64,000 bases of DNA from Opisthorchis felineus. Lineage: Eukaryota; Platyhelminthes; Trematoda; Opisthorchiida; Opisthorchiidae. Under the pieces are notes generated by a model that saw only the letters and a list, made by a program, of their open reading frames with translations, had not been told where the DNA came from and made no database searches. Position numbers and translations under genes: made by a program. Location of the stretch: contig SJOL01002920.1 of NCBI GenBank assembly GCA_004794785.1, positions 106,115 to 170,114 of the forward strand, in the 5' to 3' direction. Below are positions 4,184 to 42,500 of the stretch, piece by piece; the first letter of the stretch is position 1, and the number at the start of each line of letters is the position of its first letter.

Positions 4184-4453
4184 TAAATAGGGATGGAGTG
4201 CTTTAAGAACCCTCTGCTTCGACCCAGGCAGCTTGGACGAATCATTTACTCTCGCGGTCCTCCGTTCACTAATTTTTTCCACACCCCGTCAGTCCGCTCG
4301 AATTCATTTAGTTGTCAATCATCTAACCGTCGCCTAGCGTCTGTTATTCTGCCCATTAAAATGAATAAAAACATCTTAAACGAGAGATTCAACTGGGTTC
4401 CAAGTGAGTCGCTCGCAAAACCAAATTTGTTTGCAAATGAGTGTATTTCGCTA
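4184..4453 (+). repeat. left arm of inverted repeat
   Basis: Pairs with 5202-5471. An apparent frame (ECFKNPLLRPRQLGRIIYS) occurs in both arms simply because the arms are duplicates. Confidence 0.85.
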
Positions 4454-5201
4454 GAATTTAACATCTTTTGCTGTAGAAGCCATGCCACAACTGGTGAAAT
4501 CAAGTACGTCGTTCAGAAAACGTTCAACCCTAACTCAACTGTTTACGTCCATTATTCGGCGTTTTCGTCAATACTCGGCAAGCATTGAATACATTAACTT
4601 CTCTTACAATTTTAGCCTTTTATTAGGTTTGCTGTTGTGAAATCTCAGCTTCCTACGTACACAGGTGACGAAATTCCGACAAATCGTAATCTTTGTGGAG
4701 CTGATGAAGCCACTCTCCGTCATTTGTGCTTTCAGAACTAACTCTGACTTACCATCCAAATGGGTCTCATCCAGACTTGCTCGGTCAACTTGGTATATTT
4801 TCCAGCTTCTGGATCTTCCTTCTATCGAAGCCCATGCTGACACGATTGTTTATCGAATTGAGTCGTACTGACTGACAGTAGACCAGATTATCGTACAGTG
4901 CAAATACGATTGCTTACTGGAATCTATTTCGGTGCAGTGCTTCCAGCCTTGAAGCTGAGTGCAACTCGCGTGCTGTAGATAATAAGTATCACTGCGTCAA
5001 AATCATCCAGCGTCCGCACAACAAAGTGTGGGAACTATAGATTCGTCCTAATGGGTTTTAGGCATGTGACTGGGCTGTCGTATGTTCGCGCTCAGGGCAC
5101 ACCGACAGAAAGCAAAAGCAGATGTACGTTGCCGAACTTGACATCGAGCCCGGATACAAAGCCACAAGGCGAAAAAGGCCTCTTTAATTTAGTACGGGTT
5201 T

Positions 5202-5471
5202 AGCGAAATACACTCATTTGCAAACAAATTTGGTTTTGCGAGAGACTCACTTGGAACCCAGCTGAATCTCTCGTTTAAGATGTTTTTATTCATTTTAATG
5301 GGCAGAATAACAGACACTAGGCGACGGCTAGATGATCGACAGCTAAATGAATTTGAGCGGACTGACGGGGTGTGGAAAATATTAGTGAACGGAGGACCGC
5401 AAGAGTAAATGATTCGTCCAAGCTGCCTGGGTCGAAGCAGAGGGTTCTTAAAGCACCCCATCCCTATTTAA
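5202..5471 (-). repeat. right arm of inverted repeat
   Basis: Reverse complement of the left arm with scattered substitutions and no large indel seen. Confidence 0.85.
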
Positions 5472-7900: not shown

Positions 7901-9460
7901 TTAGTGCAGGCGTTTGACTTTCTAACCATTAGTACTCACTCGACCAGCTCCTTTCGGGACAGGTTTTTGTGTCTGATATATGAACCATTCACTTGAGCAG
8001 CCCCATATAAAGGCCACCCCGTCCCACATACACGTGACAGCACTGATAAAACTCACATAGGACAAAAATCGACTAATTTGAGCGTCCATTCAACTTGTAA
8101 TCAATGGGTGCGAAGCCCAAAGACTGAATTACTACTAGATTGGTGAGACAGAAGGGAACGATTGGTATGTGGAGGACATAATGCAGAGCAGCCAACTTAA
8201 AATCCACTTGTAATTACGGCAAATCAATCTCCTCAGTAAGAACTAGAGCAAAATGTACTGGCATTGTTCGATCGAATTTCTCATATATTTCGGTTGTTAA
8301 AGGGCTATCTGCCGATTGGAATATCAGATGGGCAGCCTGTTGTTTGAGCAAAATCTTCGACAAATGGCCAACAGCTAACTTTTTATATTCAAAAGTTTTC
8401 ACTTTCGAACTTTTTCCTTCGTAGTTGAAAGCCCCACAATTGTAGCTTAACCTTAGGTGGTTGAAGATTCAATAACCTTGGTTGGCACTACCTCATGACT
8501 GAGACTTCAGAGATCATTGCATTGATCTACACTCAGCATTGCTCCACTCTGTGGCCATGGGAGTATCACTCACGAACCCTAAAAGAAACGCTCTCGAAGG
8601 AGGACTACCTTCAAGCTGAGAACCAAAATACCCAACCTAAAATGCTTACCTATGAGAAATTTGTCATGCTGCTTGGGACTGAATGCTACCACATGGAAGT
8701 AGCATTCACCCTCGAGTTTAAAATTGTGTTCTTAGAAGATTTCCCCCGTCCTGGTTAAAACTGCATTAAATGACCCATCGCAACACTTGAGACCGAATCA
8801 ACGGAGATAACTCTCTCTCTCAGATTATTGTTGATCAGTAGAAACTTCAGTTGTCTTTGGAATCAGCCGACTTAAGGCACTCGTTCAAACATGTTTTAGA
8901 GCCTCTTAATATTGTTGCGTCACTTGCGTGCATATACCTCGACGAGAGAAGTAGCACACCCTACGGCTTGTCGCCAGCCATCAGAGGTACCTGAGTAGTC
9001 TACTTGCAATAAGACCTTATGTAGTCTCTAGTGTATGTCACTTAGTGGGAGTGTAGCTTTCCACACGAACATTTAGAAAGAATTTTTCAGTATTGAGATT
9101 ATCAACTTCGACACCGATTTCGATGAGAGCAAATGCGGCACGATCCAGCATTGAGAATGACTCACGCACAATAGTGAAATGTGAGCTCGTACAGCAGAAT
9201 ACGAACAACCAAGCGATAAAGTCCGTTTACATACTTCATTATATCATATCTGGAATATACTGTCGAATATGATCGGGGGAAATTTCTCATAAACAGCACG
9301 CTGCAGCTTCAGCAGGGTGCTAGCAATTTGCTAAACCATCGTACCATTTGGTATTTTTGTGGAAAAATACCGCAAATCACTATCTTAACGGGTGCGCTCC
9401 TATGACAGCAAACTTGGGTCAGTGCTAGGGTTCCAAACCCTGAAGTTATAGTATTCTTAC
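7901..9460. other. probable NCKX intron 8, no other feature seen
   Basis: It follows the phase 1 donor of exon 8. A minus-strand scan for a terminal TM-encoding exon gave nothing convincing. Confidence 0.45.
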
Positions 9461-9586
9461 CTTTAGAGTATATTATCACGGGTGCTCCAGCGGTCAGACA
9501 TTTGAGGAACCACGGCAAACCCATACAAACGAGAATATCAAACACATTGCTGCCAACTGCATTGGACACGGCCATATCGCCCTCAC
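9461..9586 (-). CDS. NCKX exon 8: second half of alpha-2 repeat
   Basis: Residues 474-515. It reads [19 protein letters not shown] then [22 protein letters not shown]. Asp490 in NVFD corresponds to the Asp that gives K+ dependence in NCKX2. The acceptor is TTTTTCTGTGTAG. The exon leaves on a good donor (GTAAGA) in phase 1, so at least one more coding exon must follow, encoding the last TM segments. I found no convincing candidate between 1 and 9460. Confidence 0.94.
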
Positions 9587-12500
9587 CTACACAGAAAAAT
9601 AAGGTGGAATTATGCTGCGAATGTCAAGCAAACAGCCGAAGCCTGTGCAATCCCAACCCTTTGGGAGCAAAAATGCACTCGACTTCTGAATCTTGTGAAT
9701 TAATGAACGGAAAAAATACAAAAATGTGCGTCCTAGTCCAACCGCCTTGCGGGTTACGTCTAGGTTGACCAAATTGTCCAGGTGGACTTCCCTGCAACCA
9801 ACGCTCTATTCGATATGAAAGTCCGCTGCTCACACAGCAAACATGAAACGGAACTCTGCTTACAACACTCTGCCTTACCATACGGTGCAGGTATTAACAA
9901 GCAGTACTAGTTCCTCACCAACACTGTTTCTATCCCTTACAACATTAAAAACATCATTGACGCCAACACAAGAGAAGGGCACTGGTACTTCACTACCGTA
10001 CAACTATTTCAACTTATTTGAATAAAGCCTCACTATCAAGCTCACCTCACCATGTCCACCGAACTTTCCTAGCCGCCCAGCAGCAATCAGTGCTCAACCG
10101 CTGAAATAAGATCTATTTTGTTGACGAGCTGTATATAGGCTCCCCGCAGTGGCAGATGCTCGAAATTTGATGCGCCAACACACTACACCTGTTCAATATC
10201 GACGTATCACCTGGCGACCATCAACTTCTAAACAGCGATAAAAGCAGATTAATCACATCACAAGCACTTATCAATGGTGCGACTATCAAAAATTACCGGG
10301 ACAAGTTAATTCTGATCCTGCCTGTGGAGTTACCAAACAACACAGAACCAAAGGTGAGACCGGCGCCCTACAGCCTGACAACACTATCGCCCAAGAGTGA
10401 TACGGACTTGAGAAACCACCCTCCAGCCAACAACCGGAGCTTTTCAGTGAATACAAATTCGGGTTTCGATTATTCCGTTAGCAACATCCACTCGTTTTAG
10501 TCAATACTGAAGTTTAAGGCCACTGGCGACTTCGAAAAAAGATCAATCGACTCCAATGGCCGCGCAGCCAGTCACCAGTGAACACAGTTGGACATCCAAT
10601 GTAGCATGCAAAGGGCAGCGAGAAATGCTGCTTGCAATTTCAAAAAACCGCGGCTTTGCTGGAGGGAGTCGTTCTCGATTGAAAACGCAACAATGTCGTT
10701 ATGTTTTCAAAGATAATAGCGTTTCTGCTCAGACAGCAAAAATGCTGTATCAAACAGACCGATATTATCAAGCGACACGACACCAGTCAAGCACCAACCT
10801 CATGCGTATCAGCTGCCCCACCCGAAGCAAACACGTACCACCAGTCACACCTTAGCAGCACAGTTTACACATCTGCCATCATGGCTGGTGGCAAGTCTAC
10901 TCCAAGCAAAACGAGCTACTGAATCTCCTTCCAATCCCTTGATATTCTTGAAGCTCATTAACGCATTCCCGATGCCAGCAGCTACAACCGGATTTGTCAG
11001 GTGCCTGAAAAGTAACCAAAACATCTTTAAAATAGACAACGGAATTTGGTGAATCCAAAGTGCCTCCGAAGTTGAACCGACGTCTCTACCAGGAATCTTT
11101 CTGAAACTTTTACCTGTCAGGAATCCGGTGCAAGGACCCGTCATGTTAGTCAAACGAGACGGTCAGCCCATACCAAACATAGACAGACACCGAGTGGGGC
11201 GCTCCAATGAGTGATTGAGTTGCCCTCGTCTTTAAACATTTCTGTCAGACCCACAATTCGCCGTCCACGTCCTCTAAGTTGGGACCCGACCTTTCCAACT
11301 GAGATTTTCAGGCAACCTCAAGAAACGAAACGCCACCGGGTTTCGGAACCAAATTACCTAAATCTAGCCTTCTCGAAGTAGTAGAAACTACTGTTTTTGA
11401 CTATATGACTCAAATACTTCCGAAATATAGGATGAATGATTGATATTGACGGAATGCCGCTCTGCTACCATCCTCATCCTTGAAAAGGTGCAACAGCCAC
11501 CGAGAAATCAATCTGATGTCCATTGCGATGCACACAAGATTAGCATAATGTACTGAGCTTTTTCGATGTGACAGCCGCAGACCAAATCGCTCAAAGCTCA
11601 AAGTATAGTGGGTTCAAAAGCATGAGGTTGTCAAGCATTTCCGGGATATATAGAAAACTAAAGGTATTCTTCTTGAATAAGTGTTTTAGAAAGATAATGT
11701 TGTATTAGGTTAGTTATTACAAGGTATGCTGAAGAGTTTTCAATCCATTCAATTCAATGTATCAGCTATAAACCGTGTACCATAGGCACATGGGTTCCAG
11801 CTGCTACAGTTTCAATCACCAGAAAACGGGAAAGTGTGAGACATACAGCCAAGCTGAAGAATTTTAGCTGGAAAGTGCTGCTAAAGAGGAATGGGCCTCA
11901 CCATTATTCGTTCCCCAAATATTATTTGTGATTTTCCAATACAGTTCATTAAGAATTGACGGTTCCAAACGAGAGGAGGAAGCAAAACAAATTCCGCTGT
12001 TTAGAATTAGCTTTATGAGATGAACCATTTTACAGAAAGCTTACTGCGAAAACAATCGAACTAACGGGTGAGAAATAACATAATGTTTCGGAAACACAGG
12101 TGACAACAATTTAACTAGAATGGTTAATCGCGCTAGAAACAACAACGGATTTTCCTACCCACCTAACGGTATTGAATGCGACAATCATGCGTGTCTACCG
12201 GGCAGCTCTGCCTCACCAAATACCCTTCCGAATGCAGGCAAGCAAAACTGCTCATTCCCATCTAGCTTCTGATGTGTACGAATTAGCCAATCGTATAAAA
12301 CTTAATTGCTGCAAATTAGGTCGATGAAGAGTTTGCATTGATCACTAAAGTATGTGAGTCGGATTACAATTAGGCCCCTCAAATCAATGCGAGAAAACAG
12401 CTCACTAGCATACGCTCTCCAGACAGTGTAGGTGGGAAGAAAAACGAAAAGGGACGGCAATGACAGTATCCAATAAGAGAGAGAGCAATGTGAACGTCAT

Positions 12501-15500
12501 TAATCTAGTTAATCGGGACAAAAGTGAAATTTTCTCCCAAAACGGTAGTGCCGAAGTTCTGTCTAGGATGTGGTGCGGAATAACAAAAATGGATTGTCGT
12601 GCGCACATGAGTAAAAACCAAACTAAAAAGGAAAACTAACCTTCCCGTACGACTAATATACTTGCAATGGCATCGGGCACGCTGGAACCGGCCGCAATGA
12701 ATGTCAATCCCATGATCGTATCAGGAATGTGGAAGGTTACGCCTTTGGGAGGTGAGAAGTGGGGGTAACAGGAAAGGGTGGAACTATCTATTAAACAAAT
12801 GACAGCACTGCACGTAGGAAATAAGACTGACTGAAAACCCGGGGACTACCTGATGAATGCCAAGAAGGACGATATCGGCGCCAGGCCGTCGGAGAGCCTT
12901 CACTAACCTCTTAGTGTTATGTCAAGGTATCATTATACTTTGAAATCGCAGTTACGAATTATAACATGGGAGAATTAGGAGTGAATATGTACTTGGATGT
13001 GTTTGGACGTTCTTTACAACGGTGCGCACAGAAACCCGAAGTGTAAGAATTTCGAATGACACTGAAAACAATACGGTTCTCCAAAGTACGATTAACCGCC
13101 CTAAGCTCGAGCTGTCAGGTTTTAAAAAGATAAACTACCCGGGCGAATTAAACCAACAACTGTGAACGGCAACGTGATGGGCAAAAGAAAAAATGATCAA
13201 TTCTGGAGGAAGATCTCTGTCTGTGAGATCAAACAAACTCCCAGTTTTACGGAGCAACTGAATGGTCTCCGAGTGAGTGAGTGAGTGAGTGAGTGAGTGA
13301 GTGAATGAGTGAGTGAGTGAGTGAGTGAGTGAGTGAGTGAGTGTGAGTGAGTGAGTGAGTGAGTGAGTGAGTGAGTGTGAGTGAGTGAGTGAGTGAGTGA
13401 GTGAGTGAGTGTGAGTGAGTGAGTGTGAGTGAGTGAGTGAGCAATTAAAGAAGCTAGTAGGAAAATGAGCAAATAAGTATGGCCCTCGCTGGGCGGTTTG
13501 TCTTTCGCCGAAGTGATTTGGTGCGCGCTTCCCGTAAACATTCACAAATGACATACTTTAACAGTGAACAGTCCGGAGATTTAAGCATATAACTGTGCTA
13601 GAAGTGAAATTCCGTGGCTGCCGTTGTACAAGCCGAATTATTACTGACTAGCAATAGCCACATATGCACGCCTTACGGGTGGTACGGGTCACTAGGTGGT
13701 TTGCTCGCCTCCACATAACCTGACAAGCATTAGCCACTAGCTGGGTCTACCTATGACTTTAGAATTATCCCACCCTGTTCACCCTTCGGCGTCGTTCCCT
13801 CGAGTTCAAACCAAATACGGGGGTTTCCGCTGGTTGCACCTGTAGCTGAGAAAAAACTCCGTGCGGCAACACCTGCGCAGAAAGCTGTCAACGCAGTTCG
13901 ATGTGACAGGCAAACCGGAAACCGCATAACAACCCACCATTTCTGTGACAGGAAACTGAAAAGGTGTTCTCCTTATTACAAATCCACAAACTTTAATTCC
14001 TCGGGGCTTCGTTGCGAAATCGGAAGCTTTAACCTAGAGGAGACCGGTTAAGACTAAACCATGCGACTTGAAGTCCTGAAACAAACAAGACCAACAATAA
14101 ATCAGCTGACTCTGGCCGATCCAAAGCTCCTTCAAAAAAGTCGTTTCAACACACCTTGGAATCACACTCGGAGAATGGAACCCTACTAAAACAGGATCGC
14201 TACATGCCTATCCTCTGTGGTTTTCTTACACAGGAAACGATCACACAGGAAATCGGCAAACTGATTCGAATGAAGTAAGCATTTCTTTGTTCTGTTCAGC
14301 ATCATATTTATGTTCATCAAGTTACTGCGGACACGGCCAGTAGTGAATACCGCCCTCTCAGAACTGTCAGACACATGGAATGCTACTCGGCCACTGAAAG
14401 TCATTTCAAATATGTATGCTCAAAATAATATTAAAAACACTTAAAACGAGCAGCGTATCGGATAACAGGGCCGACATCACGGCAACATCGCTAGTCTGTG
14501 AAATACGGGGAAAAAATCCCGTTCCTCACATCTCTCTCATTTTGGGAAGCTGGTTAGGAAGCTTACTACCGAATTCGTTCGTTATTCCGACGTACGATGC
14601 ACTTGGTTTTGCGATCGATTCATTCCCCAAAATGTTTCATCGAACTGGGTTAAACTGTTTTAGTAAAAAAGAATGGCTTTTTCGCTGGATTACCTCTGTT
14701 AAACCATTATAGTTTTGTAACTGTATTGCATTTTGTAACTCTTTTTTAATTGGGTCACTGCAACTACAGTGCTCTTTTGGGCAGTTTTTTTGGTTGGGAC
14801 TTTCATAATGGATTCGAAGTAAAACTATGACAGACTGTTGAGCTTTCCATGGAGGTATTCACTAGTACAAGTACACATATGCTGCGTTTTCATCACTGTG
14901 CTCGTATTTTTGGATAATCCTCACATTTTCGCAATTCTACCTTCATGTGGGTTTCGCGTATTCTCCAATTTAAGCTTCCTAAATTCCCATCATACCCTCT
15001 GGCCTCACAAGTAGGAAGACCACTTGAGGATGACACTTTCTCCCGAATAAGCGCGGATAACAGAGGACAACGTCTCTAGCTCATCCCCAGACAATGTGTT
15101 GGATGAGCGAATGTCTACAATGACCCTGATGTCATGCTTCTATTAAATCATGAAAAAGCAAAGCAGTATTTCAAAACAACAATATAATTCCCAACAACTA
15201 GTTCAAGGCCCGATTGAACGCAAACCTGTTCAAACAATCTGTAACCTATGATATGTGTGCATTTACTCCCGTTCTGTAGTTGCACGTTCTTCTTACCCTC
15301 CTGACTATTTATTCCAGTTTCTTGGACTACTATTATCCATCCTACTGTAGTCTATTCCCCCCTATGAGTATGATCTAACAGCCATCAATTTACTGCGGAA
15401 CGAGCCTTTGTGGATTACGTGCTCCCTGCCAAACTTCACAAAATACAAGTGTGCGCAGCGTGCAGAGAAAAACAGCTCGAAAGTTCCGGTCAATATGATT

Positions 15501-18500
15501 CGGCTGATGTTGAATAGACAAAAACGGTACAAAATCCAGCAGCTACCAAACAGATCACGAAAAGTATCCAAGCGTACAGAGTTTCGCAATCCAGGTTTAC
15601 GTAAATGCTTGCCTCTATTTACAAAAACCCTGTGTTTCTGACAGTTTAGTCAAAGGAATGAAGCTTACGGGAAACTCCATTATGAATTCGAACACTATGT
15701 TCCCTTTGATCACTTATTTCCAAATGAAGTCATACGATGTATAAGGTAATCTTAGTCTGATGACTGACAGTTACCGCCTATCATAAGGGGAAAGTGTTAG
15801 AATTTCTCACCAGTTTCACTTTGAGGGGGGTATAAGGTACAAATACATTTTTATTCACCAAGAGCGTGCCTCTGAACACAAGATGGTTGAAAACATAGAA
15901 AAGAACTGCCCACCCTGAAAAATACTTTCCTTAGAAGATTATCACGATATCTCGAATATCGTAGCAACTGAAACATGGGCGGCCTGGTGCAGCACATTCA
16001 GTTGCCTGGAGACATCACAAACGAGAGATTCAGCTGGGTTCAAGGTGAGTCTCTCGCAAAACCAAATTTATTTGCAAATGAGTGTTTCGCTAATTTCGTG
16101 CAATTTGGTTTCAAGTAGAACATAAGGCTGGCGGAAACTCGGGGACTGCGTCTACCTGATGAGCCCCAAGAAGGGCGAAACCGGTAGTGGGCTGTCGAAG
16201 AATTTTCAGCAACCTTATGAGTAGTGCATTACGAAGCTTACAAGTATTTCTTGTGGTCTACCAGCTGCTGATAAAAGTCAATACATGCTTCGGCTTAGTG
16301 AGTGTTATTCAGTAGTATACCTAATAAAGGATGCAGGCCAGTGGGCCAAGATCACTTGTGAAGTCCTTATGGGTTGGGTTACAAGCAGGCCGATGTCTTT
16401 AGTAACTGTCAATAAACCTGATCGTACATCCATGCCAGCTAAAAGTTCATGAACCTTACTAGCTCCAAACCGGTCATTCTAACTTGAGACGTCCGCCGTA
16501 AAGTATTCACAGCTTCTTATGCATTAAGTGAATTATACGATTCACCTTCCGATCCTTTGATTCTCCAGAAATACGTGCATTTTAATGCCCACTTTCATGG
16601 TTGGTTCCTTTAATGTTTTTCATTATTAATAACAAACAATAGCACCTAATCCTGTTACGAAGACGGTGAGAGCAGCGCGACAAAACAGAAGCCAACCAAT
16701 TGACTTGAAGTCTGGGAATCAGTAAAACTCGGACACGTGCGCTGAAACCCGACCGAACGTTCGTTGTAACGGGAGCGCGTCTTGAATATCTCCACCACAC
16801 CGGACAAAAGTTTGGAGTGCAATAAAAAAGGTCAATCATGGAGGCTCACAGGATGTATGAAAAAGGTGATTTTTGTTTGTCATACCTCACACAAGACGGT
16901 TCAATATGAACTAACACGTTTGTTAGCTTGTCACGCAATTCTTCCTTCTGTCAAACAGAAGGAAGAATAAGGTCCTTTGTTTCGTTGATAAACCCGAAGA
17001 AATTAGACGATTTTTTTTCTCTTCCATGTTGAGTTAGATTTCGTTAGTACAGTATTACAGCTACGAATATTACGCTCTTTGAGACCGTTCCCACGTTTTA
17101 AAGTTAAGTGAAATCGGTACCGCTTAGGAAGGTGAAGGTCGATCGGCGTGATGCAAAAAGTGTACATAGGTCTCCAACACCAGGATAGGGGCAGATATGA
17201 ATCAATCAAGCCCGCTGGTGAGTGCGCGGTGCTGTGGTCCACCGATTCCACTCAAGACGAAACGCTTTGTGTACTTCAGCGTCCAAAAAGCGCTCCAAAA
17301 GTTAGAACTTATTGGTGTAAACCAGGAATCAGGAATAGCAAAGATGGAATCCTTGACAAGATGTAGAAAAGGTGGATCCCCCAATGGTCCACTCAGCCGT
17401 TACTGTCTGCCTAAATCTCGACCATATTTCAAGTATGGTGTAGCTTCAGGTGTTGGTGGTTGCGGGATTTTGCAGAATACATACTCACATGACTCTCTTT
17501 TGAAAAATTGTCCTCTGTCCTGGCGTAATCATTCTGATGAGTCCACACCAAAGGGAGAGAAGCACTGGACTCGAGTTTCTCTCTTGTTAGAGCTCATCAG
17601 CAGTGCATATCCAATGGCCGTGCCGGGGTTAAACTCCGCACATCTGACATACGAGGCGAGCATGTTACCACTACTCCACCAGTGTAGTTCTTTCATCAGA
17701 AACGTTATTATCAGCACTCCTTCGGTTTCTATGTCTGCATTTCTGCTAAATTACTTTCAAAAGAGCGATTTTTGCACTGACAGTCTCTCATGCTAGTTTA
17801 AATGTTTTCCTTCTAGTTGTATTCGAAAATGAAATATCCGATGTCGTGGAAGAACGGCCCATATTATTCATATCCAAAAGTAGATTAAGTCCACAGAAAG
17901 AATCATTGAAACGAAATCCACCATCGACACGGAAAACAGCACGAGACTCGGCTGCGTAACCAATTTCTGAGATCTTGGTGCCTACGGTGAAGGTTGCAAG
18001 GGAACGAAGTATATCCGTAGATTCTGATGAGAGGACAATAAATGAACAATCGTGATGGCAGGAAGGTAGGCTACTTGATCGTGGTCCTCCTTCGTTTCCG
18101 AGCTTCTAACAACATTTGTGTCTCCTACTTGAGTAGAAACGACGGAGGTAACAGGCTTTAGAAGACACCTACATGTGGGATGCTAAATTCAGGACTGTTT
18201 ACTCGTGAGTAAAACCACCTTTGGATGAACAGGATGTTATTCCTTTTGGTCCCAGTGGGACAGGAATTGCCGGTGACGTAGATGGCCATCGACCCGGTAA
18301 ACACGCTCTGCACTATAGGACAATTCTTTAGGTTATCAACATCTACGACAGCACCAGTACTGATTATCGGTAATCCACTTCTGTCCCTGTTTATTTTGTA
18401 ATCTCGCCAACAGATGAAGTTCCATCGAACATACTTCAGAAAGAAAGCAGAAGTTCCCGACCTGAGCGAGCCAGCTGGGGACGACACAAGTTTACCTTCG

Positions 18501-21500
18501 TTTACCCTCCATAAGCTACTGACACCAAAATGAATCACAGAATGCGGTTGATACAGACCACAATCTTTCGCAGCTCTTATTAATCTGAATCTGAATAGAA
18601 ACCCTCTCCATAGTTATGAGGTGATTTCGTTTCTCAAATCGTGGGAGTTATAAAAGACTCAAGGATCTAAAATACCTTAACACAATTAAAAAATGTTAGA
18701 CTTACCAATGATGGAAATCATCCACATCATGATTATAGTGAACAAGCCGATCCATACACAGCACATCACAAACGAGATCCAGTGTGATAGTGAGCTGCGA
18801 CGCCATTTCGCTCTTCGAACGTCGGGTACGGTGAGACATAACAAAAACCGCAAAGGCCAGATAGACAAGGCGTAAAAGAAGTGAACTTTTGCCCGGACGC
18901 CTTGGGACTTTGGTAGACGTAGTGGGGCGAAACATGTATCGAACCAAGATTCTTCCGGGTCACAGATTTGTGTCTCCAAATCAGACGTGGAATTATTGGC
19001 GGTCTTCATAATGTCCACTACTCTCTTGGGGTCACCCATTGGTTCGTCTATTAAAAATAAAACAAGTCATTAGCTGTTCCGCGAGATGTAAGGGCAGTCT
19101 CAGCGACTGGGGCTAAGGACAGAGGACAAATGATGATTTGAACACGATTGTATTTACGGCAGTGAAGCATCGGTGTTGAACACTGATGTCATGCTGTCGA
19201 TGATGATGATTATGTATTTCACTCCCAACCTTGCTAATAACAAGCGATAATGAGCTCTAGCAAGTACTTTGCACTTACCGAATGATCTCAATAACACAAC
19301 TGACACGATTTTCATTCTTATGCTAAACGATGCTACAGAAGTGTCGAGCCAGAAGCGGACGTCAGTGAACCCTGAGGGTTCCTTAGACCAAAATCGCATT
19401 GGTGGTTTTCGACCACAATAGATGTCTGACGGCGTGTCAATCTGAGAGCCGTATTTATACACTGTACATAAGATGCTAGCTACTCGTTTCTGAAATAGGT
19501 TCTCTATTAATGGAAACTATAACTGTCACCTTTCATTCCAGTCGACTAAGCCCGTAAGCCAATTCCCGAAGGTTTGCAAGACCTATAAAAACACGTGTGA
19601 TCGAATTCACTGACCGCTTGTTTGAAGTACCTGGTGCCAGGATTGAATGGGTGCGAAATGCTACTAATTTCAGTACAGACTAAGGGCAAAAATGAAAAGA
19701 TCATGGTGTGGAACAGTATTTTTGCTTCATCGTTGGCAAAATTCTGCAGCGGCTTAGATTCTACGGTAGTCCACAGGCTTTGGATAGCCATCCGCAGTTA
19801 ACAAACATTATTAGAGGTCCAGTTCCCATTGTGTGCATTTAGCACTAATAAACCCACAAATTTTCGGTCCGACTTGTATACAGAATGCCTGTTGGTCAGT
19901 CTAGTAATTGAATATTCTGCTATATATAGATTGAAACCTTACGATGCGTCGTTTTCCCGAATTGGTCTTCGCCGAATAATGATAAAAGATAATCAATAAT
20001 CGTTTAATTGCAGGACTCGTCCTATATTGTCCTGTCTAGTACGACCAAACCGTTTGTGTTTTTTCCTAAAGCCACAGTATACCCTACATTATGGCTGCGT
20101 CAATTGTTTTCGCTTTTCCTAAGTCAGCTCAGTAACAAATCAAATCATCTGGACCGTCGAGATTGAATTCCTTCTCATCAATTCTGTTATTTGTGATCCC
20201 GGTTACGACTCAGCCCACATGGCTCTGTGCTGCATGTGCAATGCAGTAATCCGGAAAGCTCTGAAGTGCCCATTAAATATGACTGACGTGCAAACTCGAA
20301 TCGAGACCTCTGCAACATAAAGGCATCCTCTGATTGGCCGTATTCGCCCCCCCAGTGACCTCTTTTTCGATTATTGGTTCCCTTCAAACACACTCCGAGG
20401 GATGTGTTAGGAAAATGTCCACAGGCGTTCGTGGTAGGATAAAAGTCTTCCTTACCCCTCCGATAGTGACTATCCGTGTGCCGTTGTTCAAACGATCAAA
20501 TGAACCATTGTTTTGTGGTGATAAATATTCATTTGCGAACTAAGCTGGCGTTCAAGTACGATATAAGACTGATGAAGACACAAGGACGAGGCCTACCAGA
20601 CGAGCATAAAGAAGCGCAAAACCGGCAGTGGGCTGCCATGAGTCTTAATCATATTCATGAGTAGTGGCGTATGAATTGTTGTTTTGTTCATATAAGGGAA
20701 ACTCCACCAGTGAATGTCACTCACGATCGCGAATATTGCACTCCTGGTCTCCGAAACCCACCGACTCGATTTGTGAGCACCACTCAATTCAAGTGGAGCC
20801 CAGTGTCCGTAATCAACTGAATTGGTCTTAACAGCGTCTTGTACCCAATCACGACCCAAAACCACGTTCTAATGCAGATCTGACTGGAAAAATATTAGGG
20901 TCCCGGTCTGCGAATTAGTGAACAAGGGAGTTTCCGTTTGAAATTTGGACCTAATAGGTTGACAATTAGCCCACAAGGTCGGAGAAGAATGTGGTTTTAT
21001 TAGCGTTTCGCAAACGGTACAAGGCATATGTTACTTGAAGTTACTCGCACCCGGGAATTCTATATACACTATCTTCGAGAGCAGATAATATCGGCCAGCA
21101 AGTTAAAATGAAATAATGAATGACCACCAAAATCGTCCGTCTACCCAGAAAACCGCAAGTGACGCGCAGTCTGCAGAGTAATTCGGGCCGTATTGCGCTG
21201 AAAGTTAGAGAACTTGACGGATGATGCCGGTGCTCATTGTTATACCCTCATGCTTAGACCAGCCGATAGCTTGCAGTAGACTTCCGCAGGTTCGCCCGCT
21301 GATCCTATTCGCTCGGGTCTACATCCACGTCAAAGGCTTGCATGAAGCTTCACATTCGGCTCAGCTCAAAATGTCCGTTCTCCTCAACTATGCGCAGGCA
21401 TTCAGTGGTTCGACCACTGTTGGTATAAATAAAAAATAAACTTTTAGCTGTAACACTGTTTCGGCACCGAAGGAGGCATGAGGCCTGAGATAATTTCAGG

Positions 21501-30500: not shown

Positions 30501-33500
30501 CTTGGACGTTGCCATATTCCAGTTACGACTGGCCCAATGAAGACGCAAGTAACAAGCATAGCGTTTCACTTCATAACAGATCTCCAACAAGCAGCACATC
30601 TGAGAATCACTTTACAAACTTCCATTCTTTTTGCGATAAAGATCATTCTCACAAACAAGCGGGAAACGCTTCTGGTTCCTCCACGTTCTGTCGACTAGTC
30701 AAACCAACCTACACAACATCTATTTTTGAAACAACTCCAGGTCGTGCGGCCTTTGTAATTAGAACATCATGAAAAGTGCTACAGGCCTGGGCTATGTGTA
30801 CGTTTCTGTGCCATGTTTACGAGGCCGGAGCATAGAGCAGGAAGTCACTCTCCAGCTGTGCTGGCGAAGGTCATGGAATCCATTATTGCTGACGATGCAG
30901 TTAAGTGTCACAACACATCATGTTAGCTCTGTCACAATATTTTCTCACGGTGGTTCTGCAGTACAACTCTCCTACTAGCCCGAGGATCATGATTAATAAC
31001 AGTAGATGCAAGCTTCTGAGTGGATAAGGCTTAGTGCTTTCAAAAGCACTTAACAACGATGGACACGACAAAAGGGCCCGTGAATTAATCGACTAACGCC
31101 AATTTCAGTAGAGATCTGAAATCAATACTTTTAACCGAACATGTCAAAAGAGAACGTTATCGGGAAGGTTGTCTGAGTGGTTGCAGGATTGGCGCTAACA
31201 TATTAGCAGACGTACACCGGTATTACATTCTGTTAGCTTATTTATCGGCATAGATTATTCACCCTTCCATGATAAAATCAGATCACATATGTGATTAAGT
31301 TAACCTGATCATATCAGATACAAGTACACCGATCCTTGGGAACTGGTCCACTGAGACGGTATTGAAAAACTAGCAGCCACATCACTAAAGAAAGTGCAGC
31401 TCAAAGGTCGAGTTCATTTTTTCTTGATGTGAACTTCTGACCTCAAAGACACAAAAAGGTAAAACAAAACGTACTCTAAAACCACTTGATGCATTGCACA
31501 CAAGTAACTTGTTTTCAGTCCGAAGGCAAGTTCAAGGAAATTAGTATTAAACTCAGTGATCAATTCCATTCGGTACGGAGATTTTCCAGCAGGAGACTAA
31601 AACATCATCATAAAGCTTTGAGTAAATGGACCTTATGTAGTTTCCTACCATAGCCTGTGGAATTAGTTCAAACGTACACATTCAATGCCCACGAACTGTG
31701 ACAAAACCAGAATGGTTTTGCCCTCCACTTTGCGTAAGTGCCAGACTTTACTCGCCAATAAATAACATCAAAGCATTGCTGCTGAACTACATTTTAAATA
31801 GGAGGTTGCCGAAAAGGAACAGAACAAAATAGCACATAAGTTTTCTGCATAGTGCATGAATTTTTTGGGATTATTGCGCCATCGTTGTACCAAGGCAATA
31901 ATATCAAAAGAGACGTATCCTCTGGGCAGCCTGAAGGTAATGAGATCCATGATCCCACTCAGTGGCATTCACAAGATAATGGAAAGCGTAGGTTTTCAAA
32001 TTCAGCGGTGAAAATTTCGTGATCATCGCCCTTGTTGGTACTTAGCGGATTAGAAGTGTTAGACAGTAGGCGACCTGAGTCTGTTCAAAAGTCTGTTGGA
32101 AGTGTGCGACTGTGGTTGCGTCTTCAGAACATACCTCCAGTGCACACCTAGCTATAATGTGGGATCGCACTACCAGATTTTGAGGTCCAATGGCATTGGA
32201 GTCGATTAAAGGACACTTGACTGACTTATTGTGCACGGCTTTAATACAAGCGCCTTGGTTGATCAGAACAAGGAGCCCGTGGTCTGTCGCTCGCATCTTG
32301 TCCTTGGGTGTCACATGTGCAATCAACTGCTGTTCCAACATCACTGACCTACATATCGATGAGTGTAGACCAGACCAAGTGAGTTATCGTGCTGACCTTG
32401 GGAAGCCGTGGAACTGGAAAGCTTAACAATAGCCCTGAGAAAAAGCACACCTGTTAAGTACCCCAGTGGTTAAATTGGATTAGGAATCTTGGTAATGTAA
32501 CATTTAGCGTTGTGTAGGGTGGCCGACTTGATAGATGCTTCGGAGCCAATACGTGGAGGCCTGAGAGATTTGTTGTGATTTGGCTACTATGCTATGTGCT
32601 ATCAGGTTACTCACAAAGTTCAGTTTATGATCTGGAAAAGTACTCCGAGTTCATGTGTAAGGAAATTCGTTTTCTGTAGTCCACAGTTCACCATTTCTGC
32701 AACCAACTGTCATCAATTTGTGCACTATTCAACGGTCTCCATGTCGTGAAACGTCAAGAAAACAGTGGGTTGTGGTGAAAGTAAGGATGGTCGAAGTTTA
32801 CGAAGGCTGACATGTAAGTTCGAAAAGTTACAGGTGTAAAAAATTTAAGTCTGAAATCGACATTATAGATTGACGCAGATTACAGTTTGACGATTTTTTT
32901 CGAACCGTGAAAACCAAACGCTAATTTAAACAACCTAAACGGGAGTCACGACGAACCACGGTTGTAGCAATCGACTGATATCGTTTCTTACACTTCACGC
33001 GATTCTCCTTGTGTAGCACGTATTCGATTCTATGGATGGCTGTTCAACTAATCAATCGTAATGCAAACATGCTCAGCTGTTGGAAATTTGAATTTTACAT
33101 TCGCGCCACTCTCGGTTGCATGAACCGCCTCCTGTCCTGGAGAATTACTGTAATGAGTCTGCCAAAAAAAGGACTGGACTCGAGTTTCGCTCTTATCACG
33201 ACTACTCAGCGTTGCACATCCTTGGCTGTGCCGGACCATGAAGACCTGACATCTGACATACGAGGCGAGTGTGCTACCACTATTCCAACAGCGCACACTG
33301 AACACAGCTGAATTATCACGTCCCTACATACGGGTCGAAGAAGTGACCCAACCAGGTCATCGCTGAAGTCGTCAGACGAACCGACTACACCGCTCAAGCG
33401 TGAACACGTTCGTCCGTCCGGACTTGATAATCCTGGTGGTCGAGTCCAGTGCGTCCCTACTTGGTGTGGACTCACCAGAATAAATGCAAGCCCCTCAGTC

Positions 33501-36500: not shown

Positions 36501-39500
36501 CACAACCACAACGTAGATCAAGTATTTCGTCGGATTGATGATGCTGTTTAGAACACAACCACTTACCTCACCGAAATAAGGGGCATATGATAAGGTGACT
36601 TCAGCTACCGTCTGTGATTTATCAGAATTCAGAGGTGAATTATTTCTATGATGATCATAAGGCGGCTTGTGAATACAGGTGGACCTAGGGTTTAAATGAA
36701 TCTCCCAACATCTTTACTTCCATACTCCCGTTCAAAGTCTCGATAACCTACAAGCAGTTGGTAGTTGGCGTATTGATGAACTATCAGTAAAGACAGCTAC
36801 AGCACGCAAGAGGCTCCCATTGAAAGCATAATGAGCGAACAAACTAGTGTGCTAGTAAAAGTTGTCCGTTCATGGGATCATTCCTACTCACGGTATCTCA
36901 GGTAGTTTTCTTGTTTCTTTATTCGATTTCTACCAGAAAATTGCGGGGCCGTATGATTGGAACTTTAGCCACCTTCGCCTCCAGTAAATACAAGGCACAC
37001 AATACAAGCTTAGGTGACTGATAAGTGGCGCTTTACTATTGTGCCAGTTGGAACAAGAAAGCCCTCGAAGTGTATGCAATTACAATAAAGTCGACGCAGT
37101 GGAGAGAAAATAATCCCATTTCCATCCTGCTTTTGGCAGACAAAACTGGTGAATGTTTGTCACCATGGTAACCATAGGGATACATAAAGGTCCCATTGAA
37201 TTCACAAACATGGTGGTGTAGAAAGCACATTATGTCCGAAAATTGGTGGGCTGTTTGCAATTAACGGTATTATTACTTTAAAAAATATCTTACTCCAGTA
37301 CGTTAACCTTCTTCGTCTCTTCATCTGAATTCCTTAAGTTTAGATAGTAAAGCGCTCGCAGACTTCCGGAATTTAGGAGAAACTAATGTGATCAGAGGTC
37401 ACATTGACTCTCACAAAATCAGAACATTACTATTGACTGGTTGTAGGTTGTTGTTTTCATAAACCTATGGTCTTCGGTAATGAGCGGAACATACAACGCA
37501 AGACTAAAATGCAGCACACAAACGCACCTGGATGATTCATTCAGTGCACCATCAACTAAACTAAAGAGAGTGGTGATGAACCGACGTGGTCCGTAAAGTT
37601 GTTTGTGTTCTTCGGATAGAATACTCAGAACGTTGACAGTGCTATAGCACTTTCCTGTGCCTGTCTTCTACGAACGGATTAGTTGGCATCAGGTGCTTAT
37701 TACCAAGATGTGTAGCGGAGCAACGAAGCAATTTCTTATGAGTAATATTCTCATTACCATTTTCCAGTATTTGCACAACTAGCTCTGGTCTTTAAGATGG
37801 CAAAATATATATGGAGAATCGTTAGGCTGCCCAAATGTCCCTCCTGCTACAAAACTGACCCCTTTACTCTTAAAGTGATCAGTACTGTGCAAGAATCACT
37901 TTTGGTCGGTCCATTGTGACGTCTATAAAATGATCGCGGCGACAGGCAAATTTAACATCAAGCTCTTTTCACACTACTCACTCGTACTAACCACTGTTTC
38001 CCATATAATCATTCGTGGACACGTTTACATTTTGAAAGCTGGACTGTTGACCGTACACTGAAGTTGAAGTCGCTTCCTTCATAAGTAGTTAAAAACTAAG
38101 CCGGGAGTTCTTTTACTGCGGTACTGACTGAGCACTGAGGTACATGCAAGCTTGGAAAATACGGGAAGATTTGAAGTGAAGATCGAAATGCGAAACGAAT
38201 GTATACAAAGTTGACCTTTAGGTGGTAAACGGGCTAATGATCAACGCTTGTAATAACTATACAGCGAAACAGAAAACCATCACTCGAACATCTTGTAATA
38301 TGAAAAATTGCAGTTGCATAACAGTAGTCGGTAGTAGTGCTGAAATGTTCCGGTTACATCATCAACATCATCATGCACAGCATAACATCAGTGGTACACT
38401 TGTGTTTCGGTGCCACACAACCATGATTTATTTGAAAGCCTTATGGCGAAAAAAGAATAGTGGACAAAGAAGGGACTTAGTGCTAGTCTAAAACAACCAT
38501 TTCGAGGTGCCCACATCGCCAGACACTCACTCAGGTGATCTGAGTTGGCGTATTGACATCGGTTGCTAGCCATTTCCTGCAGCGTCTCCAACTAGGTGCA
38601 GTGGTGATCACGCGTTTTCCAACCTGGAAGGCGAGTCGCACCGACAAAACCTAGACCTTTCGTAATCTCTTTCATACCCCTATGATAAGCCAAAAGTTGG
38701 CCACCTCTCTGCTTCCATCACTCTGAATGCGGCACGGAAAACAGCACTCTCTCCGGCAAACGATGGTTCGGCGTGCACAATACACAACTTAACCAGCGCA
38801 GCTTCTCGTGCTGGACACGTTCTTCAATGGAAGCCCTCCCCGTTGCACAACCGAGCACTCGCTTTCTAGCTGCTTCGTTACGATTCCGCGACACCAACCC
38901 ACACGAGCTACGGTCGTGGGAAAACGGTTGTCGAAGACCTGAAGACGTCTCAGTTACGCTGGTCGAACAGGCCAAATCTCACAGCCATACCACAAAACAG
39001 CCTGCACTGTAGTCTGATACATACGTTTCTAGAGATTCAGAGATGTGCTACTTTGACGCCACGGTGTATCATATTAGCAAAGGTGCCCCAAGCCTTGCAG
39101 GTTCGTGCATTGACTTATTCTGTCACACTACAGTAGGAACTTATACAACTTCCGAGATAGGTAAAACGCTCCACAACTTCGAGTACCTCTCCCTGGATTG
39201 TAACTGCCGTGTCCAGGAGCATGAACTTAAACCTTGTAGATGAAAAGCACATGTCGAAGGACGGAATGATATTGGTCAGTTAGTCAAATAAGACGTGCGC
39301 CTTCTTTTCCTCTTCGAAGACGACAGCGATGTCGTCTGCATATTCCAGGTTGACAAGGATTTCGACAGCAGCTATGTGAACACCAGGGTTTTGAAGACCC
39401 TCCAGTGTTCGTCTAATTATCTCGTCCATCACGGAAGTAAATAGAAATGGAGAGTGTGAGCGCCCCTCACTGACACCGCTTTGTGTACGGAAGCTTAGGA

Positions 39501-42500
39501 GGGAGAGCTCACCGTATACTTTCACACGCCCGGAAGTCGCGGAACACGAAAAACTTATTATGTTCACAAACTTCCGGGGCATTCTTTGCTGGGCAAGAAA
39601 AGACGAATACCCCAAGACACAGCTCAGGAGGATGATGTCTTCACTTCTGAACAGCATCGAACTGTACGAAGATGAGCATCCTGTCAAAGCAAGATGGCAG
39701 CCTTGCCATGTCTCTCCGTGACTACCCAATGATCCCTATGCACTTGTTGATAAAAAACAAAGATGATAACCATACAACACTAGAGTAGTCTTTGTTTGCA
39801 AGGACTGGAAATGGCACGTTAAACAGTATGATAAGGAGATGCTATAGTAATGTCTAACTTGTCACAATTTTACGTTATTCTCAGTGTCACAGGTTCGTAT
39901 TTCAGTTCAGTGCAGACAGCGCTGGTCAAAGAAGGACAGATTGAATATGGAAGGGTTCTCATTCCTGCTAGAAAAGCTTGAAAAGCGACACGTAGGAGCA
40001 GGTATCACCGGATAAGCGACTAAATCATGTGTCCTGATGAATGCCACCAATGCGTTTCTCTATGAAGGCCACTTAGGGACACGACAGCAGTTAAAATAAC
40101 CAATTTCGCCGCTGAACCATGAATCCTTAGGATCTAGCCCATGGTTCACGGGTAAGTACTCTGCGAATTAGGCAGCCCACCAACATACGTGACAAATGTT
40201 CAACCAGCGCGCCCTAGGGAGTATGACTGGTTCACCTATTGTGAGCGAGTTGCTTCTCATGATGTATTTCTACAATAACACGTAGTACACGTAGAAAACT
40301 ATATTGAAAACGGAGTTACGGAGGACTGTGCTTCGCATTTACCTAAAGGAATCACTAAACACATCGCATTTGGGTTCTCTTTTAAACCCTAGTAGGACAG
40401 ATTACTTAGAAGTAGCACGAGTGAACTTTCTTGTTAAATAGCTAACTGACCGGAAGCCAAATTACACTCAACTCGAAGTGTTTGGTGATTGCTACGAGCT
40501 GTGGTTGTGGTGGTCGGGCCTTAAGTTATTCAAGGGAAACCAAAATCAATAAATATAATTAATAACTTTCCGAAGACGGGTGTCCGTATCACGTTGGGCC
40601 CGCTGGGTGTTGAACGTTTTGACTTATTATTATTACTTTTATTATCACTATATTACGCTCCTCCTCAAATAGCATCGAATGACATATGAAACATGGAATA
40701 CACTTTCAACAAAATGGAAGTAGTCTAATACGTTAGCTACAGTGAATCTGGGGAATTTTCTCAGTAAGCCCGCAAGCAAGTGACATACCTATCTATCAAT
40801 TCGCAATGCAACCCACAGCTTGTTCTTCGACATACCGTCAAACAATCACGTACAGACTAATATATCATGGGAATCGAAATTCGCCAGTTCAAGAGATAGA
40901 CGCGTCGGTAGAAGTTTAATCTTTATCAAGCGGGATCTGCTAAGAGACAATCGCATATTGAGTGCCTCAGAAGCGTGGCTGGTTTTGGATGGCGTCAGCG
41001 TGTTAGTAACGAGGTGATTAGAAAACGGGTATTTGGTTGTGCTGCAGGTACTTCAATCGGGGAAAACATCCAGCACCACCGACTACGATGGCTCGGTCAT
41101 GTGCTACGCATGCCGAAACACCGTCTACCGAGACGAGTGTTGTTCTCCATGCCTCCTTCAGAATAGCGCAAACCGCGAGGTGGACGACGCATGACTTGGC
41201 AGAAGGGCGTGAAAGAGAGTTTGGGTGTTGTTAGTGTTGTATGCCTTCCAGGATGGGGTCCCCGTGACCCCGCCTGTGCTTGGCTGGAGACGTTGCAAGA
41301 AATGGCGGCTAATCGATGTCAGTGACGTTCATGCTGCCAGTTTCCTTCCAGGTTGTCTGATTGAGCGGTTGGAGGTGTAGGCACCTCAGAATGCTTGACA
41401 TAGGCCAGCACTAGGTCCCCTCCCTCACCCACTCTTTTTCTCTTCTTTTCACTCTAGGGCTTTAAATATAACTAGACGAACCTTATGGTTGTACGGCAGT
41501 GAAGCATCAGTGTCAACACTGATGTTGCTGTCTTTGATGATGATGATGATCATGATGATGATGATGACACTGAGTGCTCTGAGCTATGCCAAGTGCTTCA
41601 CATACCAAGTAAAATTCCAGACTAGATATGCTACGGTGCAGTTGTTCTCGATCAGGGGGATCCGGCTCTGGAAGAGGCGATCTCCAAGGTTCTGAGAGAT
41701 TGGGGAATCAGGTTTGAGGTTAAAAATACTGGTGTGTTGAGTACTCATGACTCGTAGGCTGATTCATCTGATTCTCTGGTGACTATGTATACACGCATTC
41801 TCACTAATCTTTTCTGTGGCAAGTGTTTAGCCAGAACATTCGTGTTTGCTGTATGAAACGCATCGCACCGTGGCTTACGAGTGAAATTCGACACACGGAA
41901 GATGGCAAAACGCTGTGAAAACAGTTGGTTGTATTTAGTCCGTGGATGACAACTGCTTATGGTTCACAAGTCTGAACTCCAAACGGGCTCAAACACGTGT
42001 ATAGGCACAGGATATTCAACGACCGAAACGCTGAGAAAGTTATAATCTTTCGGTGTTCATGGATCACCACACTGCACCAAAAGGAAGCCGATACCAAAAT
42101 GAGCGGTCGAGGAGCAGGGTAGTAAATCCTGACGGGCCGGTGAAGTGTCACAAGTTGATATAATCATGCCTGGCCTGAGGTAAGGATTATAATTGCTCCG
42201 TTCGATGCGCCAGAAACGGTGACCTTGTCACAGTGTGCAATACTGTGTGTTCACTAAACCGATGGCTTCTGACAGGACTCCGCTCTTCATCATTTTATTA
42301 CTGGTTATACCAACGAACAAACGTATTACGCGTGGTGTAAATGCCAACCTGATAAGGTTCGATGGAGAGAGTTGTCTCATCTGTTCATTGTTTTAAGATG
42401 TGCACTTATTGGTTGAAATGATGCCAGTGGATAACAGTCAGTATGAAGAATCGCGCACTTTTGCTTGGATCACCGTCGGATCGAAGTGAGTTGTGACAAG

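Follow-up and report, generated by a model that had tools for sequence, protein, structure and literature searches.

The hammerhead motif at 16.15 kb of the window, by which we mean the whole analysed stretch of 64 kb of Opisthorchis felineus DNA, lies in a repeat copy (15940–16235) that fits a known kind of element, the non-LTR animal retrozyme, of which it appears to be a single, moderately decayed and ordinary copy. We consider it very probable that this copy is a decayed retrozyme monomer, that its family was inserted in a Penelope-type manner, and that it is a passenger in an intron of an NCKX-like gene. The intronic copy being ordinary, the part worth following is the insertion pattern of the family. 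This footprint of recurrent 3′ ends, head-to-head joining and short duplications is relevant to the still unanswered question of the enzyme by which animal retrozymes are mobilised, and it makes the proposal of a Penelope-like mover testable by end counts elsewhere and by in vitro priming. Among the papers listed from the open-licence literature on hammerheads, retrozymes, Penelope-like elements and flukes, no report of such a retrozyme insertion footprint was found.

The hammerhead core was read directly from the sequence. On the plus strand, CTGATGA (16156–16162) is followed by stem II with the strands GCCC and GGGC and the loop CAAGAA (16163–16176) and by the GAAA core (16177–16180), so that these parts stand at 16156–16180 in the correct order, as had been described in the earlier note. 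The remaining parts of the fold are as follows.

16144–16196, plus strand: type I hammerhead ribozyme, bounded by the two outer strands of stem I (Rfam HH9 alignment)
16150–16155, plus strand: 5′ strand of stem I, GTCTAC, forming six pairs with GTGGGC at 16187–16192 (sequence and alignment)
16144–16146 and 16194–16196, plus strand: outer stem I, GAC with GTC, three pairs (sequence and alignment)
16180–16185, plus strand: stem III, the loop-less palindrome ACCGGT (sequence)
16184–16186, plus strand: cleavage triplet GTA, which is GTC in most family copies (HH9 alignment and family copies)

In the comparison with the Rfam covariance models, Hammerhead_HH9 (RF02275) aligned with 16141–16205 over the full length of the model (31.2 bits, E 6.7e-6). 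The match is complete, but its score is below the gathering score of 52, and a scan of the whole window at gathering scores gave no hits. Stem I is open-ended, with an internal loop (TGC/T) separating the six inner from the three outer pairs, and contains two wobbles (T16151–G16191 and T16153–G16189). The earlier note had taken GTC at 16194–16196 as the cleavage site, with the cut at 16196. Because the type I alignment pairs GAC 16144–16146 with 16194–16196, this GTC forms the outer stem I strand, and cleavage at 16196 was rejected. The alignment predicts the cut after 16186. Cleavage triplets of hammerheads follow the NUH rule, which GTA at 16184–16186 satisfies, and GUA is tolerated as a triplet, being weaker than GUC. 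The description of the motif as intact holds for the core and stem II, but not for the cleavage triplet with its GTA nor for stem I with its two wobbles. Stem III can form all of its pairs only when two copies come together, the ACCGGT duplex having six pairs and a duplex energy of −8.3 kcal/mol. A 12-nt family piece around stem III formed no pairs when folded alone. Because stem III is a palindrome without a loop, the predicted hammerhead activity would probably need dimeric RNA. The hammerheads of newts and viroids described in passages of PMC6155905, which are dimeric, are similar in this respect.

The bare pattern CTGATGA-N4..20-GAAA was found twice in the window versus 1.05 times expected from shuffles, and is thus not significant on its own; the plain fold of 16135–16210 was ordinary (z −0.57). 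Because about one occurrence of this loose motif is to be expected in 64 kb, the case is carried by the complete fold together with the membership in a repeat family, and on these grounds of sequence we take the hammerhead motif to be real. A chance motif unrelated to a ribozyme, for which the frequency of the loose pattern could be cited, is hardly credible in view of the E value over the entire HH9 model. It also fits poorly with the motif bearing GAAACCGGT, which recurs in 35 of 92 loci, most of them retrieved through similarity or the core motif.

For the repeat itself, the own genome (630 Mb, 1,848 contigs) was searched for similarity with 15700–16700 as query. At least 101 matches were obtained when the best 40 of 3,994 first-look candidates were scored, and the long ones span 15940–16235. 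The dispersed repeat postulated in the earlier note was thereby identified as a high-copy family with a 307-nt unit, and its class, given there as unknown, could be resolved as fitting a non-LTR retrozyme.

15940–16235, plus strand: one retrozyme monomer, unit positions u1–u299 of 307 (own-genome search; 96% to the tandem unit of locus L010)

With the doubled unit as query, the match in the window extends to 16247. Head-to-tail arrays with an exact 307-nt period were found in L010 and L012, each with five full units plus partial ones, and the successive units leave no room for an ORF. HH9 was matched in all five units of L010 (36.0 bits, E 4.9e-6); at gathering scores, none of six loci reached the threshold. 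The majority sequence of the family (44 full copies from 31 loci) has GTC at the cleavage triplet. Among 32 distinct copies, the hammerhead core is intact in 24, of which 19 have a fully paired stem II; position 17 in these 24 is C in 20, A in three and T in one, and the window copy has A. In a circular fold, the L010 unit reached −99.7 kcal/mol (z −4.78) and the window copy a z of −2.53, each compared with 100 shuffles. The GC content of the unit is 46.6%. The idea that the unit originated as an old dimer, made up of two half-units, was rejected, as the halves scored 11.0 and the shuffles on average 11.3, leaving no signal.

Metazoan non-LTR retrozymes, with platyhelminths among their carriers, were described by Cervera and de la Pena (2020; PMC7229834). 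In the relevant sections of that paper they have tandem units of 150–450 bp with a type I hammerhead, a GC content below 50%, TSDs of more than 4 bp when present, highly paired RNA, and coexist with Penelope-like elements, which are proposed as their movers (section 17). The family of O. felineus is alike in these points: the units of L010 and L012 are tandem, of suitable length and carry the type I hammerhead, the window copy being a monomer; GC is below 50% and the RNA is highly self-paired; and TSDs of more than 4 bp flank some insertions of the family, the window copy having none. It differs from the retrozymes of those sections in that insertion ends are described here and in that the family is known from DNA alone.

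For analysis of the insertions, ends were mapped on the circular unit in 72 sequences (71 loci and the window), after seven overlapping loci had been dropped. Pieces with less than 80% identity or shorter than 50 nt (25 nt for the analysis of insertion pairs) were excluded, as were insertions shorter than 60 bases and those lying no more than 30 bases from the end of a locus. The 67 3′ ends occupy 74 rows; nine rows correspond to junctions inside the L010 and L012 arrays, two of which were among the 67. Two regions of the unit, site A and site B, are represented in the window.

16220–16235, plus strand: 3′-terminus region "site A" (u291–307), the end point of many copies (end mapping)
4351–4451, plus strand: retrozyme-family fragment with its 3′ end at site B (u154; unit mapping)
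5200–5303, minus strand: retrozyme-family fragment with its 3′ end at site B (u157; unit mapping)

After removal of the junctions, 31 of 65 3′ ends were located at site A (u291–307) and 13 at u151–160 (site B). The main copies of L010–L038 had been fetched with the u1–u299 query, a choice that biases the sample toward site-A ends and consequently toward A+B pairs. Among unseeded, non-junction 3′ ends, 14 of 29 lie at u148–164, i.e. at site B (P 9e-11 versus uniform), and five of 29 at site A, which is no enrichment (P 0.12). When main copies were fetched by the hammerhead motif alone, seven of 11 ended at u285–307; the P of 3e-6 versus uniform overstates this clustering, as such copies must contain u220–250. 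Ends exactly at u299 were seen in eight loci with a query extending past u299. The 5′ ends are scattered, and only one of 63 falls at u251–260, the expected start of a self-cleaved linear RNA. Because of this scatter and the near absence of 5′ ends at the hammerhead cut, we infer that the usual template is continuous across the cleavage site, either as a circle or as an uncut multimer. A start motif shared by sites A and B (ATGAGT..GYATTWCG) was considered and discarded, since 488 of 7,828 pairs of 30-nt stretches align equally well or better.

Both ends were in view in 49 insertions. Head-to-head copies with the RNA 3′ ends pointing outward were found in 19 of them, and insertions with two outward 5′ ends in none. 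Flanks sharing at least 8 bases occurred in nine of the 49, versus 0.23 expected when flanks were re-paired, and eight of these nine are head-to-head. The shared direct repeats comprise 8–15 bases, some including a few bases of the element (for example in L023, L014, L011, L017, L026 and L038). Read from the table with windows of u285–5 and u148–164, 11 of the 19 head-to-head insertions are A+B pairs; with looser windows (A to u13, B u128–178) these become 15, besides one A+A, no B+B and three others, and both counts are biased upward by the u1–u299 seeding. The window copy has neither an inverted arm nor a TSD (shared flanking string of 4).

By analogy, head-to-head copies with short TSDs resemble the footprint of Penelope. 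Copies of Penelope in a rotifer are described in parts of PMC3846280 as having inverted pLTRs joined head-to-head and TSDs of 8–10 bp, some copies being without TSD. For a Poseidon enzyme, sections of PMC11167929 report that both strands are cut and extended, that uncleaved RNA is used, that synthesis starts within the RNA at two adjacent sites, and that hammerhead mutants left insertion in the assay unaffected. As far as these sources describe them, Penelope-like elements and the retrozyme family have in common head-to-head copies, short TSDs, tandem copies, a type I hammerhead and more than one start of reverse transcription. The retrozyme unit differs in having no ORF, longer hammerhead stems and 3′ sites that are about 145 nt apart and not adjacent.

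A cycle can be proposed in which multimers would be transcribed from tandem copies and cut into 307-nt units by their type I hammerheads. Continuous RNA, circular or uncut multimeric, would be reverse transcribed at a new site, giving rise to the tandem copies seen in the DNA. Insertion would most likely be performed by a Penelope-like reverse transcriptase with its GIY-YIG endonuclease. After a staggered cut, both strands may prime synthesis at preferred sites of the RNA, B near u155 and A near u299, and two copies would then meet in the observed head-to-head architecture, leaving short TSDs. More specifically, a Penelope-type enzyme could prime both cut strands off one continuous, probably circular RNA, with the starts A and B about half a circle apart and the cDNAs joined at their 5′ ends; this we put forward tentatively, at slightly less than an even chance. 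If true, retrozymes would parasitise Penelope-like elements and possess two defined start sites acting in cis.

Head-to-head copies could also arise by self-priming or template switching within one cDNA synthesis by any enzyme, and the authors of PMC3846280 favour self-priming in the part of their text that explains the rotifer Penelope copies. Both outer ends being RNA 3′ ends, the repeated position of the inverted arm at site B and the direct repeats outside speak against it. The outer 3′ ends and the outside repeats would be expected from independent priming by each of the two target strands, and less so from self-priming, which we therefore regard as possible but doubtful. As a point against Penelope-type insertion, which remains our preferred explanation, a LINE with template jumping could likewise leave inverted ends. 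A role for LINEs is also part of another explanation, in which the repeat would be a SINE-like satellite comparable to Sm-alpha of schistosomes, with its own polymerase III promoter, moved by LINEs, the hammerhead trimming its transcripts. In accordance with this, a short repeat in the genome of a worm carries a type I hammerhead, and Sm-alpha is characterised in passages of PMC6155905 as a non-autonomous retrotransposon with type I hammerheads; by description, the Sm-alpha/W-elements of Schistosoma are likewise short fluke hammerhead repeats (parts of PMC6155905 and PMC8490949). We judge it unlikely here in view of the exact 307-nt head-to-tail arrays, the head-to-head insertions and the clustered 3′ ends. 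Moreover, no A/T tail was seen by eye at the inspected 3′ ends of the retrozyme pieces, and A and B boxes could not be clearly made out by eye in the unit.

A search of the own genome for GIY-YIG sequences gave at least six matches when 150 of 553 candidates were scored, and GIY-YIG pieces above the Pfam cut-off are present in L082, L083 and L084. The reverse-transcriptase piece of L082 scored 26.5 bits, slightly under the cut-off of 29.6. For L082's piece, homologs with an E value of at most 0.001 number 230. The best of them (120 of the 230 listed) include partial proteins of Opisthorchis viverrini and of tapeworms, many annotated with PF26215. L081, L082, L084 and L088 all have CCAACGACCA at their 3′ end or close to it, preceded by a short hammerhead-like motif, which we class by eye as a minimal hammerhead. 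Its stems are different from and shorter than those of the retrozyme, and Rfam gave no match to it at E 0.1 (L084, L008). Inverted 3′ pieces are joined head-to-head in L082 and L008. By script, no shared flanks of more than four bases were detected in five Penelope-type loci, for which six choices of boundary were used and the L008 flank on the left was masked. Between retrozyme and Penelope-like loci there was no sequence similarity beyond short weak matches in L081. Since no sequence tie to the Penelope-like element was found, it is the footprint and the coexistence that hint at a link between the two. As a separate observation on L084, TGATTTATTGA is visible on both of its sides by eye.

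The repeat could alternatively be a remnant of the Penelope-like element's own pseudo-LTR and not a separate retrozyme. For this reading it can be said that such an element is present in the same genome, and that Penelope-like elements have type I hammerheads and a similar footprint according to sections of PMC11167929 and PMC3846280. We consider it quite improbable, as the hammerhead-like motif of the element found here has different, shorter stems, and as the 307-nt units of L010 and L012 are consecutive with no ORF between them. Of the features of a Penelope element, head-to-head inverted copies with a short TSD are thus seen in the family (19 of 49, eight with a shared flank of at least 8), but an ORF for reverse transcriptase and GIY-YIG is absent between the L010 and L012 units, the ORF pieces lying in other loci.

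In the host gene, one exon (minus strand, about 12639–12745) was recognised by a sequence motif and is taken to be NCKX-like; it is probably the second matched stretch of the NCKX search, in the same frame. The exons detected in the window are the following.

18701–18868, minus strand: NCKX-like exon (TIGR00927 positions 1022–1074, E 0.0017; reading frame)
About 12639–12745, minus strand: NCKX-like exon with approximate boundaries (sequence motif)
9459–9587, minus strand: NCKX-like exon (TIGR00927 positions 1107–1150; PF01699; reading frame)

One NCKX reading frame was also searched against the sequences of the PDB, where nothing was found. The 16.15-kb hammerhead lies in the intron between the exons 18701–18868 and ~12639–12745 and, because these flanking exons are on the minus strand, antisense to the host transcript, as the earlier note had stated. 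The divergence of the hammerhead span was 0.0395 versus 0.0473 for the rest of the unit (32 distinct copies), and 36% of equal-length stretches are as conserved or more, so that the hammerhead is not clearly better kept than the rest. For this reason the genomic copies appear to decay neutrally, and the retrozyme copy in the NCKX intron looks like a passenger, with no sign of use by the host.

These data also bear on a domesticated intronic hammerhead regulating NCKX, comparable to the conserved HH9/HH10 of amniotes. HH9 is the best Rfam family and aligns over its full length, and two hammerheads are located in one NCKX intron; the family here, though, is multicopy and below the gathering score, unlike a single conserved intronic ribozyme. 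Together with the divergence values, the antisense orientation of the 16.15-kb copy and the GTA at its cut site, this makes domestication highly improbable.

The second hammerhead of this intron, which had not been listed in the earlier note, is in sense orientation.

17545–17615, minus strand: second hammerhead, family B2, sense to NCKX (HH9 34.1 bits, E 5.3e-7, under the gathering score)

Its stem I is perfect, with six pairs (GCACTG/CAGTGC), its stem III is palindromic (ACTCGAGT), its triplet is GTC and its stem II closes with a G–A pair; a cut is predicted after 17568. Its family is distinct and also high-copy, with at least 49 matches when the best 40 of 3,813 candidates were scored. If at all, this hammerhead would act in the NCKX pre-mRNA. 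The statement that the NCKX pre-mRNA would not be cut thus stands for the 16.15-kb copy but cannot be extended to the second hammerhead.

Further families were sought in 40 loci picked by hand from the motif listing for their hammerhead-like look. At least two were found: the L048 type, whose locus contains a self-repeat of about 352 nt and for which an Rfam match was absent at E 0.1, and one related to the hammerhead at 17545–17615. In L042, an Rfam match was obtained (23.6 bits, E 0.049). On both strands of the genome, CTGATGA-N4..20-GAAA occurs 34,499 times versus 5,379 for a reversed control pattern, and several hammerhead families are mixed in this excess.

The NCKX intron that carries the reported hammerhead also holds a second hammerhead, which lies sense to the gene and matches the Rfam model Hammerhead_HH9 (RF02275) with 34.1 bits, above the score of the reported hammerhead and below the gathering score of 52. 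The high-copy family from which it derives differs from that of the reported hammerhead, and additional fragments of this second family are dispersed in the window:

17545-17615, minus strand, second hammerhead
33132-33481, additional fragment
48651-48777, additional fragment
58518-58826, additional fragment

The same intron contains a perfect inverted repeat (16938-16968; 14-bp arms, 3-nt loop). Elsewhere in the window, a reverse-transcriptase fragment was detected on the minus strand (39283-39735; PF00078, 24.5 bits, below the cut-off of 29.6).

Hammerhead-like sequences were also found at other loci of the O. felineus genome:

L048, about 969-1409, additional hammerhead-like repeat family, direct repeat at about 352 nt
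L081, Penelope-like element copy
L082, 514-2247, Penelope-like element copy
L084, 1208-2245, Penelope-like element copy

In the L048 motif, stem III reads as the palindrome ACAGCTGT; an Rfam search of this locus at E 0.1 gave no match to the repeat. RT and GIY-YIG fragments occur among the three Penelope-like copies, which carry a short hammerhead-like motif close to their 3' end and have CCAACGACCA in common.
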